Virus record (IMG/VR): IMGVR_UViG_3300028025_003846
Span: 1 to 32,294 of that record
Origin: a virus
Reading direction: 5' to 3' (one strand)
Length of the DNA stretch: 32,294 bases
The translations under genes and the position numbers were made by a program. The notes under the pieces are model-generated. The model did not search any database, had not been told where the DNA came from, and was given only the letters and a program-made list of their open reading frames with translations. Positions 18,667 to 25,090 of the stretch are shown in pieces (the first letter of the stretch is position 1; the number at the start of each line of letters is the position of its first letter).

Positions 18667-18686
18667 TCACCCGACACTTAAAAGTA

Positions 18687-18795
<109 letters not shown>

Positions 18796-19029
18796 GGGTA
18801 CCACTCCAGATTGCTTTTGCCTGATGAGGCTCCAGCGTGGAGTGGTGTTGAGTAAGTGGATTGCGTTTTACCACTACTGCCTAGCCAGCGGTTCTCTGTG
18901 TACCGCTTTGAGCAGACATCCCGTTTGGTCGCTAAACCACTCCGCTAAGAGCCGAGACTGCATTTCTCCCCCACTGGCGGTGGGAGCGATTCTGCCATAC
19001 TCCAGAGCAACCGTCGCCACTCTGTTTGT

Positions 19030-19074
19030 GGGTTGCTGGGTCTTGAACCCAGTGTCTGCCTTGACAGACAACCC
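19030..19074 (-). ncRNA. tRNA-like two-arm element (possible tRNA remnant)
   Basis: GGGTTG at the 5' side pairs with CAACCC at the 3' side. Between them are one 4-5 bp hairpin (TCTG-TCAAGG-CAGA) and a perfect T arm, CTGGG-TTCAAGA-CCCAG. A normal tRNA has about 25 more bases here for the D arm and a full anticodon arm. It may be a deleted tRNA, or a minihelix recognised by tRNA enzymes. No CCA is encoded. Confidence 0.45.
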
Positions 19075-19315
19075 GCCCTCGCCTTTTCAGTTGAGAGGTC
19101 GTCTTTACTATCCAGTAAAGCCGATTATTTATAACAATAATCATAGACCATCATAAAGTCAAATTCAGTCGTGAACTGACTCGCTGCGCACACTTTTCTT
19201 TACTAGGGTGTTGAGTACTGGGATACCTAAGCATCTCTTCGTCTCACGGATTCTTTACTAGGTGGTGTCGCTAGGGACTGCCTAACTAATTGCACTTTGA
19301 AGTTATGACTCTTTG

Positions 19316-19344: not shown

Positions 19345-19354
19345 CTACCTTTTG

Positions 19355-19427
19355 CTGCCCCACCTGGACTCGAACCAGGAACCTCGGAATTAACAGTTCC
19401 TTGCGCTGCCAATTGCGCCATAGGGCA
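19355..19427 (-). tRNA. tRNA-Asn (anticodon GTT)
   Basis: 73 nt. The acceptor TGCCCTA pairs with TGGGGCA (one wobble). The D arm is GCGC/GCGC, the anticodon loop CTGTTAA has GTT with a GGAA/TTCC stem, and the T arm is CCTGG-TTCGAGT-CCAGG. The discriminator is G; CCA is not encoded. It reads AAC and AAT. Confidence 0.92.
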
Positions 19428-19551
19428 TTGGTTGACCTAGTACTGACTTCCACCAAGTTTGGACCTTGGCTTCAGAGGTTCCCACTCTTGCGAGTCGTCT
19501 CAAGTTTTCACTCTGCTGGTTGGTCGTGTGGACTCAGCAGTAAAGAGCCTT
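19428..19551 (-). other. Non-coding spacer between tmRNA and tRNA-Asn with hairpins
   Basis: On the minus strand this holds CTGCTG/CAGCAG, a GNRA-type hairpin ACTC-GCAA-GAGT, and CCAAG-GTCCAAA-CTTGG, which looks like a weak T arm, then CAGTA that could pair with TACTG at the 5' end. No complete tRNA can be drawn. It may be a strongly diverged tRNA or another structured RNA. Confidence 0.4.
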
Positions 19552-19849
19552 TGGTGGAGATGCGGGGAATCGAACCCCGGTCCTAACATAGTCTGTTTGT
19601 TCTTCTACACGCTTAGGCTTTACCAGCCACGGTACTGCGGGGTACTACGGGTACTGCGTGTTCTCTTTATTTGAGACCTAGATGCTCAGCGAGAACTACT
19701 GCTTTTCTAGGGGCTTCAAGCAACTATCAGGCTGCTAGAGCGAATGCGGAACGAGATTCAGCATTTATATTTTTTAGCGGGTTCAAGAGATACCGCCATC
19801 TCTGCGTGCTTCACCAAACTTCAGATGCCAGTCGAAACCAGTCATCCCC
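19552..19849 (-). ncRNA. ssrA: tmRNA (transfer-messenger RNA)
   Basis: The 5' end GGGGATGACTGGTTTCGACTG and the 3' end with T arm CCGGGG-TTCGATT-CCCCG, then CATCTCC, A and an encoded CCA, form the tRNA-like part; GGGGATG pairs with CATCTCC. The tag frame begins with a GCT resume codon at 19760-19762 and reads AESRSAFALAA, followed by TGA and TAG. It is about 298 nt, one piece, not permuted. tmRNA frees stalled ribosomes and tags the unfinished protein for ClpXP-type degradation. The tag ending FALAA resembles actinobacterial tags. A small basic protein gene lies just upstream. Confidence 0.96.
19724..19762 (-). other. tmRNA tag reading frame
   Basis: Eleven codons giving AESRSAFALAA from 19762 down to 19730, followed by two stop codons in a row, TGA and TAG. 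The C-terminal ALAA is the ClpX-recognised degron seen in most bacterial tags. The GCT resume codon gives the usual leading alanine. Confidence 0.92.
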
Positions 19850-19887: not shown

Positions 19888-20028
19888 TTAGTTAGTTTTG
19901 GTAACTAGGCGACGCTTCTCTGGGTCCCAAACCTTAGGGCGCTTTTTGTACGCCTTTTTCTTTGAACTCAGTCTGTCGTCGTTAGCACCTTTTGCTGCTG
20001 GCTTACCGCCACCACTACCCTTTGCCAT
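19888..20028 (-). CDS. Small basic Gly/Lys-rich protein (46 aa)
   Basis: ATG at 20028 with a GTGAGGAAGAA ribosome binding site; TAA at 19888. The sequence starts MAKGSGGGKPAAKGANDDR, then SSKKKAYKKRPKVWDPEKRR. It is strongly basic and probably disordered, and would suit RNA or ribosome binding. It lies 38 bases upstream of the tmRNA on the same strand. A link to trans-translation (compare SmpB's basic tail) is only a suggestion; there is no SmpB fold. Confidence 0.6.
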   Translation of the reverse strand: MAKGSGGGKPAAKGANDDRLSSKKKAYKKRPKVWDPEKRRLVTKTN

Positions 20029-20177: not shown

Positions 20178-20642
20178 ATGAAGAACAACCAGTTAGTAGA
20201 AGTTTACGCTCCACTTCTGATTGACCTACTGCCACTAGCACGACAGGCATACGGGTCTAGAAACACCAAGTCGCCACAGCACGATGCTAGTCGTGAGTAC
20301 ACCCGCTTGCTAGTCGAGTACTACAACCAAGGTGGCTCACTCATCGCTATCGCTCAAGCAGTTGGCGTCACATACGCTGGCGTTCGCCGTCGTGTAACCA
20401 CCGCTGAGATTTCACCAGCGACTAAGCGTGTCCGTAGCAAGGCTACCCCAGAGCAACTAGCCGAAGCAGTAGCAAGAATCAAGACTGCTAAAGAGCAGAG
20501 CGTTGAGGATTATCACGAGGCTCTTCGCCACGAGTATGAAGACAATGGAATCTCGCTGACCAAGATTGCTAAGGCTCTTGGCTTGAGTTCCTCTAACCCT
20601 CTCTACTACGGAGTGGCACGGACCAAAATCAAAAAGGCATAG
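20178..20642 (+). CDS. DNA-binding protein with two helix-turn-helix motifs
   Basis: 154 residues. Two HTH-like segments are visible: residues about 51-73 (GGSLIAIAQAVGVTYAGVRRRV) and about 122-147 (NGISLTKIAKALGLSSSNPLYYGV). Each follows a helix of similar shape (YTRLLVEYYNQG and YHEALRHEYEDNG), so the protein looks like an internal duplication. It is basic and has no other domain. It is a lone plus-strand gene between minus-strand blocks, with its own sigma-70-like promoter and terminator, as expected for an independently expressed phage regulator. Its target sites are unknown. Confidence 0.75.
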   Translation: MKNNQLVEVYAPLLIDLLPLARQAYGSRNTKSPQHDASREYTRLLVEYYNQGGSLIAIAQAVGVTYAGVRRRVTTAEISPATKRVRSKATPEQLAEAVARIKTAKEQSVEDYHEALRHEYEDNGISLTKIAKALGLSSSNPLYYGVARTKIKKA

Positions 20643-21069: not shown

Positions 21070-21390
21070 TTACCTCGAAATTTGAGTCGCTATTTCTTCG
21101 GCAGAGAGTCCCTTGATTTTTGCCTGTTTTCTCATTAGTTTTCTCTGTCCCTCGGTAGTTCCACCCCAAATACCGATTTCATTATGCTTTATAGCAAAAA
21201 TTAGGCAATCTACTCGATACTCGCATACACCACATATTTTCTTAGCCCCGCGTTCATCGTAGTAACTAGGCTTTTTATGTCCCTCGATATCCTGAGGGAA
21301 GAACAACTCAGGGTCTGTTTCAGCACAGACAGGAGTGCCAATCTCATCGTTCAGGAACGGTAATCCAAAATCAAAATCTGGAATTGACAC
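21070..21390 (-). CDS. whiB: WhiB-family iron-sulfur transcription regulator
   Basis: 106 residues, the normal WhiB size. Four cysteines bind a [4Fe-4S] cluster: C22 (VCAETDPELFFP), C53, C56 (KICGVCEY) and C62 (DCLIFA). The GIWGGTT turn (73-79) is the signature that contacts sigma factor region 4. A basic C-terminal tail (RKLMRKQAKIKG) would bind DNA. WhiB proteins occur only in actinobacteria and their phages, which points to the host. Phage WhiB proteins can shut off host genes or block superinfection; the target here is unknown. It is last in the nrdJ operon direction. Confidence 0.95.
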   Translation of the reverse strand: MSIPDFDFGLPFLNDEIGTPVCAETDPELFFPQDIEGHKKPSYYDERGAKKICGVCEYRVDCLIFAIKHNEIGIWGGTTEGQRKLMRKQAKIKGLSAEEIATQISR

Positions 21391-21994: not shown

Positions 21995-22485
21995 TACTCT
22001 GGCCACTTCACTTCATCATTTACAGTGAACACCAAAGCAACAGAGTCGCCAGCATCTAGGTCAAGGTCTAAAATGCCTTTATCAGACCAACCCCACACCG
22101 CCGTTGAGCCAGAGCCACGCTTTACAAGCAAAGCCCAGTAAGCAAACTGAGCGGGCATATCAGTACATCTCTCGACATAACCCTCGTTATCCTTTACAGG
22201 AATAGCATCAACACCATTAGGAAAAGAGTTCACACGGCATACGATTTGTAGTCCGTACTTGTCTGTTCCTTGAATCGCAACAGAGTGCATATTGAAAGCA
22301 CTCATTGCATCGATACCGCCATCAACTTTGATACAGGCTTCAGATGTCTCACCGTTGTTTAGAACTCCGTAATCGACATAAACATTTACGCAGTCAATTT
22401 TTGGAGCAGTCAAAGTCTCTTTTACTAAGAAAGCAGAGACTAAGGCTACGGTGATGGCACTGGCAATTAGAATTTTATTTTTCAC
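21994..22485 (-). CDS. DUF4430-type, possibly cobalamin-binding, membrane-anchored protein
   Basis: 163 residues from GTG at 22485 with AGGAGCAAACC before it, overlapping the adenosyltransferase gene by 11 bp; a longer start at 22548 is unlikely. An N-terminal hydrophobic helix (ILIASAITVALVSAFLV) is a signal or anchor. The rest follows the DUF4430 layout: DCVNVYVDYG, a dal-like helix (GIDAMSAFNMHSV), YGLQIVCRVNSFP, QFAYWALLVKRG, VWGWSDKGI and DAGDSVALVF. DUF4430 is related to the C-terminal domain of transcobalamin and intrinsic factor. Four cysteines could form two disulfides outside the cell. Next to B12 genes, a cobalamin-capturing role is a reasoned inference. Confidence 0.68.
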   Translation of the reverse strand: MKNKILIASAITVALVSAFLVKETLTAPKIDCVNVYVDYGVLNNGETSEACIKVDGGIDAMSAFNMHSVAIQGTDKYGLQIVCRVNSFPNGVDAIPVKDNEGYVERCTDMPAQFAYWALLVKRGSGSTAVWGWSDKGILDLDLDAGDSVALVFTVNDEVKWPE

Positions 22486-23050
22486 GGTTTGCTCCTGGCA
22501 CCCAAAGCACATCGCCAATCTCACGATTAGCGTGGCGGGATAGTACAAATAAAAGGTCAGATAGTCGGTTTAGATATTTGGCAGTGGTGATGTTTACTCC
22601 CTCGCCAAATGAGTGAATAGCGTTCCAAGTTTGACGCTCTGCTCTGCGAACCACGGTTCTGGCTACATGAAGTTGCGCTGCTAAAGGAGTTCCGCTAGGC
22701 AACACAAAAGTTCTAAGCGTGCTCAGTGGCTCGTTGTATTGGTCGATTAGATTCTCTAGGCGAGTAACCTGCTCTTCTGTAACTCTTAGTGGTGGGTACT
22801 TAGGGTCGTCAACCACGGGGGTACAAAGGTCAGCCCCAACATCAAACATATCGTTTTGAATACGAAGTAAAACTTCTTTGATATCTGAATCAATATCCAT
22901 AGACAAGGCAACTCCAATGCTGGAGTTAGCCTCATCTACGGTTGAGAACGCTTCAAGTCTGGCATCGTTCTTAGAAGTACGACTCCCGTCTCCGAGAGAA
23001 GTAGTTCCTTGGTCGCCAGTCTTTGTATAGACGCTACTGATTACTACCAA
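22475..23050 (-). CDS. pduO: Cob(I)alamin adenosyltransferase, PduO type
   Basis: 191 residues from TTG at 23050, which directly follows the reductase stop. The PduO-type motifs are present: VYTKTGDQGTTSLGDG (7-22) for ATP binding, FSTVDEANSSIG (about 35-46), VVRRAERQT and a final NRLSDLLFVLSRHAN that lines the cobalamin pocket. It moves the adenosyl group of ATP to reduced cobalamin to make coenzyme B12. Its partner is visible beside it: the upstream reductase needs that coenzyme. To my knowledge this gene is rarely noted in phages. Confidence 0.94.
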   Translation of the reverse strand: MVVISSVYTKTGDQGTTSLGDGSRTSKNDARLEAFSTVDEANSSIGVALSMDIDSDIKEVLLRIQNDMFDVGADLCTPVVDDPKYPPLRVTEEQVTRLENLIDQYNEPLSTLRTFVLPSGTPLAAQLHVARTVVRRAERQTWNAIHSFGEGVNITTAKYLNRLSDLLFVLSRHANREIGDVLWVPGANREK

Positions 23051-25090
23051 TTACTTCTGGTTCTCCACAATCAACTTGATTTCACAAGCGTCAGTGGTGC
23101 AATACTTCTCACCAATTGCGTCTAGACCGAGACCAGCGTAGATACCAGCAAAGTCAATAGGGAACAACTTGCCAGCCGCTTCTTCATACTCTTCCTTAGT
23201 AATTTGCGTGTACGGCATCTGCTTGTATGTGAAGTTTCCAGATGGCAAGAACGACACAGTCTTCAGGCTTCCGTCATACATATGAAGAACCTTTTCAATA
23301 TCTTTTGACTCAGTGTCAGGATTGAACGAGATTGTTACGGATACAGAGTTGTCCGACCAGTACCGCTGAGCAGTAGCAGCCAAGTTCATCTTCTCGTAAA
23401 TGCTTACATCTTTTTCAGCACGCTTTGCCTGTGCCTTGATTGGGAAGTAGACAACAGAAGTGTGCTCTGGGTTTTCAGATGCTGGCTCAACTGTGTAGTT
23501 AGCCATCTTGAATAGAGCCAACTGCGGGTCATCATTGCCGAAGCGGATAGCACGGTTGAAGTACTCGCCACCAGGAGACCAGTGGGCACCTGGAGATTCT
23601 CCAGCCAAGATAGATACAGTACCTGATGGCTTGACAGTTGTGGTCTTGATTGACTCACGAACACCTAGCCACTCAGAGTAAACCGAGTCATACTTCTTTA
23701 CTACCGAGTAACCGTCATCCATCCACTGACGCAGAACTGGAAGTCCCTTGTTGTCAGCGAAGTTAGCGATACCAGAGATAGAAGTACCAATACGACGGTT
23801 GCGTTGCATGATTGCGTTGGTCTCTTCCCAGTGGGTAGGAAGAAGCGTAACAGTCTTGGCGTAGAGGTAAGCAAACTTTAGCGTGCGCTTGAAGTCTTCT
23901 ACATCTGTGTGGCGGTTTAGGTAAGTCTCAACAAGAGTACACATTTCGTATGACTCAAGGCTTTGCTCAGCACAAGGGTTGTATCCAGCAATACGCCAGT
24001 CCTTGTTGTTGATTGGGTCAGCAAGGCGACCATACTGCTTAGACATATCTTCCCAGATAACGCCAGGCTCACCATTGCGGATGATTCCATCGATAATCTT
24101 CGAGAAGTCAGTTCCAACATTTACCATTACCGAGTTGTTAGACATCCAACCCCAACCAGGGTTTTCTTCATCATAAGAGTTGCGGTCTGGGAACGCCTCA
24201 GCGTTCTTCAGATTTAGGAAGTTGTCATCGTCAATGCGACCAATAAGAAGTTCAGCAGAACGACGAACATTTCCAGATACAACGCAACGACCAATCAAGT
24301 TACCGATATCGGCAATGTCAACGGTAGTAAGTAGTTCACCCTTACGACCTAGGAAGATTTGACGAATCTTGTTGTGAAGAGCGATAAGCGGGTCTGGACC
24401 AGAAGCAGTACCGCCAAAAGTTCTAATTGGAGTTCCATACGGGCGAATCTCGTCGTAGTTGAAATCCCAGTTCGGCTGGTCTGGCTTTAGGAATGAGTTG
24501 ATTAGAGCAACCGTTGATTCCTGCCAACCCTCACGAGTGTCGGGGATGTTGTATTCCTGAGGTTGACCAGGCTCATAAATCTCAAAGCCCTTGTCCGCAC
24601 CCTTGTCATCAAAGCCAACACCGACACCAAGCATAGACGCTTCCATAAGGAATGCAAAAGGCTTACCTGGGTTTGACTTAGTCATTTCCAAAGTAGACAC
24701 AAAAGCGCAGTTCTGTAGTGAAGCAGAGTTTTTCTGACGGTTTACTAGGTCAGTACCCATTTGGGATAGACCGCGACCCGGTGGAGACCACTTTAGGTCA
24801 AATAGGCGGTCAAAGAACTCTTTTGCTGAGGCAGCAGCCTTAGCATCTGACCACGGCAAACGCTGTTGCTTTGCGTAATCCTTTTGTAGCGAGTAAGTTC
24901 CGTTAGTTACACGCTCACAGACCTCAGCCCAAGTTTCCTTAGTGCCATCTTCTTTCTTGCGTGAGTATGTGCGTAGGAATGTAATCTCTCCCACAGAGTT
25001 GCCAGCGGCATCTTTGAAGCCAAATGGAGATTCTTTCTCCTTGTAACTGTTAACAAATTCTTTATTTAGTTCAAACGAGAAAAAAGACAA
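23051..25090 (-). CDS. nrdJ: Adenosylcobalamin-dependent ribonucleoside-triphosphate reductase (class II, monomeric)
   Basis: 679 residues from TTG at 25090 behind AGAGGTG. It resembles the monomeric Lactobacillus leichmannii RTPR (739 residues). C128 (LQNCAFVST) and C384 are the dithiol pair, and C373 in NPCAEQ with N371 and E375 forms the radical site. PSGTVSILAGESPGAHW is the phosphate and radical-domain loop. C664 and C669 (CTTDAC) are the C-terminal shuttle pair, with the same spacing as C731/C736. It makes dNTPs without oxygen or iron but needs coenzyme B12. No B12 riboswitch is seen in the 57 bases upstream. Confidence 0.96.
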   Translation of the reverse strand: MSFFSFELNKEFVNSYKEKESPFGFKDAAGNSVGEITFLRTYSRKKEDGTKETWAEVCERVTNGTYSLQKDYAKQQRLPWSDAKAAASAKEFFDRLFDLKWSPPGRGLSQMGTDLVNRQKNSASLQNCAFVSTLEMTKSNPGKPFAFLMEASMLGVGVGFDDKGADKGFEIYEPGQPQEYNIPDTREGWQESTVALINSFLKPDQPNWDFNYDEIRPYGTPIRTFGGTASGPDPLIALHNKIRQIFLGRKGELLTTVDIADIGNLIGRCVVSGNVRRSAELLIGRIDDDNFLNLKNAEAFPDRNSYDEENPGWGWMSNNSVMVNVGTDFSKIIDGIIRNGEPGVIWEDMSKQYGRLADPINNKDWRIAGYNPCAEQSLESYEMCTLVETYLNRHTDVEDFKRTLKFAYLYAKTVTLLPTHWEETNAIMQRNRRIGTSISGIANFADNKGLPVLRQWMDDGYSVVKKYDSVYSEWLGVRESIKTTTVKPSGTVSILAGESPGAHWSPGGEYFNRAIRFGNDDPQLALFKMANYTVEPASENPEHTSVVYFPIKAQAKRAEKDVSIYEKMNLAATAQRYWSDNSVSVTISFNPDTESKDIEKVLHMYDGSLKTVSFLPSGNFTYKQMPYTQITKEEYEEAAGKLFPIDFAGIYAGLGLDAIGEKYCTTDACEIKLIVENQK

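Follow-up and report, generated by a model that had tools for sequence, protein, structure and literature searches.

The window, by which we mean the whole 32.3 kb stretch of DNA analysed here, is an IMG/VR virus record with phage genes for tail fibres, an endolysin, a methyltransferase, thymidylate synthase and ribonucleotide reductase. It also carries a cluster with five tRNAs and, starting 38 nt after a short ORF for a Lys-rich protein, a one-piece tmRNA (ssrA) gene (Table 1). The earlier note had claimed a tmRNA that is complete, encoded by a phage and distinct in its tag, located in a tRNA cluster beside a small basic protein gene, and this description was borne out. ARAGORN called the gene on the minus strand at exactly the same boundaries, and the covariance-model check that had been proposed gave an end-to-end match to Rfam RF00023 (model positions 1–374 of 374; 133 bits against a gathering threshold of 47; E 4e-52). 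The intact, complete tmRNA gene of a virus is thus confirmed at this locus.

Table 1. Features of the tmRNA locus and its surroundings in the window.
Feature	Position	Strand	Basis or remark
Intrinsic terminator, GCCCCGCTCCC-N9-GGGAGTGGGGC-TTTTACTTTT	18680..18721	minus	Found by eye; loop too long for terminator scan
tRNA-Gly(TCC)	18724..18795	minus	ARAGORN; last gene ahead of terminator
manA RNA (RF01745)	18845..19021	minus	Candidate; below cut-off in the window, above it in four relatives
tRNA-Asn(GTT)	19354..19427	minus	ARAGORN
Structured RNA of ~123 nt, undescribed	19428..19550	minus	Directly downstream of tmRNA; covariation
tmRNA (ssrA) gene, one-piece, 298 nt	19552..19849	minus	ARAGORN, Rfam RF00023, covariation
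T arm, 3' acceptor strand, discriminator A, encoded CCA	19552..19579	minus	Sequence
Shortened PK3-PK4 region	19612..19659	minus	PK3 absent; PK4 reduced to mini-pseudoknot or hairpin
Pseudoknot PK2 (CCUAGA/UCUAGG, CAG/CUG, GUUCUC/GAGAAC)	19660..19711	minus	Covariation
Tag reading frame	19724..19762	minus	GCT GAA TCT CGT TCC GCA TTC GCT CTA GCA GCC TGA TAG = AESRSAFALAA and two stops
Pseudoknot PK1 (GAGAU/AUCUC and GCGG/CCGC)	19777..19802	minus	Covariation in 14 tmRNAs
Gene for 46-aa Lys-rich protein	19888..20028	minus	Conserved neighbour upstream of tmRNA in relatives
WhiB-family gene	21070..21390	minus	PF02467, 52.8 bits; marker for actinobacterial host

The tRNA-like domain has the paired ends, perfect T arm and encoded CCA that had been read from the sequence by eye: the acceptor stem is paired at 7/7 positions, G3-U among them, the T arm at 5/5 with the loop TTCGATT, and the gene itself encodes CCA (19552-19554), as do nine of the 55 distinct tmRNAs compared. 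The G3-U70 pair, which gives alanine identity, is kept in all 55. Together with the full-model match, the tag frame and the elements H2, PK1 and PK2, this places the gene among one-piece tmRNAs (RF00023), of which it has neither PK3 nor a full PK4. We then relied on an alignment of 14 phage tmRNAs, a hand-written structure of 53 pairs, 500 shuffles and slid controls. The structure was kept in 98.0% of cells (helices 1 and 10 were paired throughout the aligned set), and paired cells fell to 37–52% in the slid controls. Since both sides had changed in 26 of the 53 pairs, a set that spans the acceptor, T arm, H2, PK1 and PK2, and none of the 500 shuffles reached the observed covariation score, the tmRNA stands far beyond chance.

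The tag frame, noted before as ending in ALAA with two stops, is read in the same way by ARAGORN. Using a fully degenerate codon pattern, we found the exact tag AESRSAFALAA in 39 viral contigs, and ARAGORN confirmed a tmRNA with this tag in every one of them (locus L080, cut near its end, was confirmed via locus L028 on the same contig). The 55 distinct tmRNAs carried AESRSAFALAA in 33 cases, ANSRSAFALAA in seven, ANTSAYALAA in six and seven rarer variants, written by 29 different DNA sequences. The 11-residue tags showed 13 extra synonymous codon types and nine extra amino acids; F7 and L9 were invariant among them, and the last residue was A in all tags. The tag thus appears, as far as these sequences tell, to be conserved under selection, and AESRSAFALAA is a phage-lineage tag common to dozens of related viruses. 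The exact pattern occurred in 0/84,980 bacterial and archaeal species genomes, a collection that may not include the host. The earlier suggestion that the tag might identify the host therefore failed: no searched species genome encodes it, so the tag cannot name the host. A looser pattern (A-x4/5-[A/D/E]FALAA after AAAT) gave 35 stretches in species genomes, and we rejected these as a host lead: of the 16 checked, two were real, both Dormiibacterota tmRNAs (ANKTNAFALAA), and none was actinobacterial.

The host phylum was indicated instead by WhiB, whose gene was present in 12/12 phage records tested, the window included, and in only one of 14 controls, Corynebacterium. On this ground, the host is very probably an actinobacterium. 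The window itself is a fragment from a group of large freshwater phages of ~125-137 kb. With the HTH gene (20178-20642) as a query, 29 viral loci were collected from contigs as long as 135 kb, and 21 of them had a tmRNA at the same place; several of the remaining eight stop at the contig end. The contigs of further relatives, which share the tag or the small upstream protein, reach ~154 kb. Among annotated genomes, the closest is that of Actinomycetia phage DSL-LC01 (129 kb, complete, metagenome-assembled, predicted Actinomycetia host), whose ribonucleotide reductase is 74% and HTH gene 46% identical to those of the window.

What might such a gene do during infection? We consider it probable that it encodes a functional tmRNA adding ribosome rescue capacity in actinobacterial infection. 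Neither SmpB nor ClpP genes were found in 15 phage records (some of them fragments), while control genomes were positive for both, so that the phage tmRNA would need host factors; ordinary trans-translation using them is the likely mechanism. Transcription, charging, use of SmpB, tagging and a benefit to the phage are steps that we infer from sequence. The tmRNA would be made together with the phage tRNAs and charged by the host alanyl-tRNA synthetase via G3-U70. Where a ribosome has stalled on broken mRNA, host SmpB and EF-Tu would then deliver the tmRNA; the ribosome would move to the internal frame, append AESRSAFALAA, terminate and be released, and the ALAA end would mark the fragment for host proteases of the ClpXP type. 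Rescue during mRNA decay, as the earlier note had supposed, is plausible; its other suggestion, replacement of the host tmRNA, is a conjecture. The phage would most likely gain extra rescue capacity along with its tRNAs, at a time when mRNA decays and the demand for translation is high.

A phage tmRNA could also be a competitor of the host's own for SmpB and for stalled ribosomes and mark proteins with another tag; these proteins would then meet a different protease or adaptor, or decay more slowly or faster, to the benefit of the phage. The conservation of the tag across diverse phages, its absence from the species genomes searched and the related tags of Streptomyces phages (AESNSAFALAA and ANSKFAFALAA) are what one might expect from such a change of fate. 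We nevertheless regard it as unlikely, as the C-terminal ALAA read by ClpX-type unfoldases has been retained.

Added rescue capacity does not appear to be indispensable. No tmRNA was found in L015, a relative of 132.6 kb, or in DSL-LC01; the tmRNA is therefore not essential to the lineage, which suggests an accessory gene. At the tmRNA site of L015, the interval from the HTH gene to manA is filled by other sequence. This phage has kept manA and tRNA-Gly, as well as the small Lys-rich protein elsewhere in its genome. Such a patchy distribution, along with serine recombinases in 9/13 records, would fit a host ssrA gene captured, for example, upon phage integration at ssrA, and retained without function. 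We find this quite improbable, the reading being already weakened by the many compensatory changes in the tmRNA and the mostly synonymous changes in the tag, both of which point to maintained function; moreover, the gene is complete and no mere 3' fragment. Integrase capture at ssrA as such was considered and rejected: no tyrosine integrase was found, and the serine recombinases, where present, lie several kb away from the tmRNA.

The pseudoknots deserve a separate comment, for here the expectation of conserved pairing held only in part: PK1 and PK2 covary, but with PK3 lost and PK4 reduced, the set in the window is incomplete. PK3 and PK4 are usual in tmRNAs and are not required in all. What remains of PK4 is either UACC/GGUA with GGC/GCC or a plain hairpin, and no stable alternative fold was found in the shortened region. 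The gap between PK2 and the conserved CCTAAGC is 42 nt in the window versus 63–96 nt in most relatives. L107 and L111 show a gap as short as this, their neighbours in the tree being long, and this topology (read from a tree without support values) suggests that the missing part may have been lost more than once in the group. Such shortening, recurrent in L107 and L111, could be taken to mean that the RNA binds SmpB or ribosomes without tagging, much as the TLD-only RNA of mycobacteriophage DS6A has been suggested to act as an inhibitor (PMC4131195), but this is hardly probable at all given that PK1, PK2, the tag frame and the resume region all remain intact and that the short forms, too, keep the tag.

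Phage tmRNAs are known yet uncommon, as the earlier note had stated: a survey counted them in 402 of 18,146 phage genomes (PMC9004378). Phage-borne ssrA has been described in mycobacteriophages Bxz1 and Wildcat and in Bacillus phage G, and a two-piece tmRNA in Melnitz (PMC4131195, PMC9004378). All four belong to other phage groups and hosts, and the tmRNA of Melnitz differs further in its permuted two-piece form with a glutamine riboswitch. Closer in kind are the Streptomyces BE1 phages (Boydwoodruffvirinae, e.g., Mildred21), likewise actinophages of ~130 kb with a tRNA array and a one-piece tmRNA, whose tag AESNSAFALAA is one residue off that of the window. However, their tmRNA is 267 nt long and only a 42-nt stretch of it aligns. 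DSL-LC01, in spite of its similarity, has no tmRNA to compare. Another actinobacterial mobile element, the Bifidobacterium megaplasmid pMP7017, also brings a tRNA array, a tmRNA and a manA motif close together (PMC10832533), but it is a plasmid, and its tmRNA is 397 nt long with the tag ANTVSSSRFTLAA. Phage tmRNA as such is already established, and the parts worth following here are the phage-lineage tag and the neighbouring ~123-nt RNA.

The small Lys-rich protein (MAKGKGGG..KKRPKVFDxxKRRLV) has 156 viral relatives, and its gene precedes almost all of the tmRNAs found. No homologue was detected in the phage collection or in Mildred21, which sets the BE1 phages apart from the window group. Starting from the protein, we found a tmRNA nearby in 53/80 loci; of the 27 loci without one, five run out within 0.9 kb. 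We rejected an obligate partnership with the tmRNA in view of these 27 loci and of the tmRNA-less records G009 and G004, which retain the protein; it is a conserved neighbour whose partnership with the tmRNA is unproven.

Downstream of the tmRNA, the block at 19428-19550 shares 92–97% identity with its counterparts in L011, L022 and L030, against 70–78% for the flanking sequence. The pattern of this ~123-nt RNA was found in 18 viral contigs; its carriers include the window, L022, L011, L030, L090, L094, L101, L107, L111 and L115. Its distance from the tmRNA varies, and L003 does without it. Among 15 sequences, 7/23 pairs changed on both sides and the covariation score was reached by 0/500 shuffles; in the same 15, further pair types were not above shuffles and helices 4-5 showed no compensatory change. 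The L101 member cleanly lacks one whole hairpin. Folding of the single sequence was no better than that of shuffles (z 0.53), so the case for this RNA is one of covariation. Searches of Rfam, the phage collection and plasmids gave no match to it.

The putative manA RNA of the window scores 47.8 bits against a gathering cut-off of 55.2, and its counterparts in L006, L011, L015 and L022 reach 59–66 bits. It is followed by tRNA-Gly and the terminator, with no ORF, and is therefore not a 5' UTR element, as a cis-regulatory role would have it. Judging by gene order, the Lys-rich gene, tmRNA, ~123-nt RNA, tRNA-Asn, manA RNA and tRNA-Gly, up to the terminator, likely form one transcript. It is tempting to go further and to suppose a phage-only tmRNA lineage, its tag kept for phage purposes, within a module for the takeover of translation that would comprise several noncoding RNAs, the ~123-nt RNA and the manA RNA outside any 5' UTR among them, rather than tRNAs plus a spare tmRNA. 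We put this forward only tentatively, and on balance we doubt it.

In any case, a tmRNA under selection across a large group of freshwater actinophages, with a tag that none of the searched species genomes encodes, opens a way to test if phages simply increase the supply of ribosome rescue or, in addition, change what becomes of tagged proteins. Likewise, what noncoding RNAs do in the tRNA clusters of phages is a question to which the ~123-nt RNA and a manA RNA located within a tRNA array, rather than in a leader, are relevant.

Three minor observations may be added, all on the minus strand. The ribonucleotide reductase gene is followed by one for a cobalamin adenosyltransferase (PF01923, 206 bits; 22475-25090 for the pair), which suggests a B12-dependent reductase served by a phage enzyme. 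A conserved noncoding stretch spans ~19150-19310 (GTTAGGCA..TCCCTAGC..CCTAGTAA..GTGAGA). Finally, a tRNA-like element at 19030-19074, with an acceptor, one hairpin and a T arm and without a D arm, is conserved, compensatory changes included, in L008, L011 and L022 and has a variable loop.
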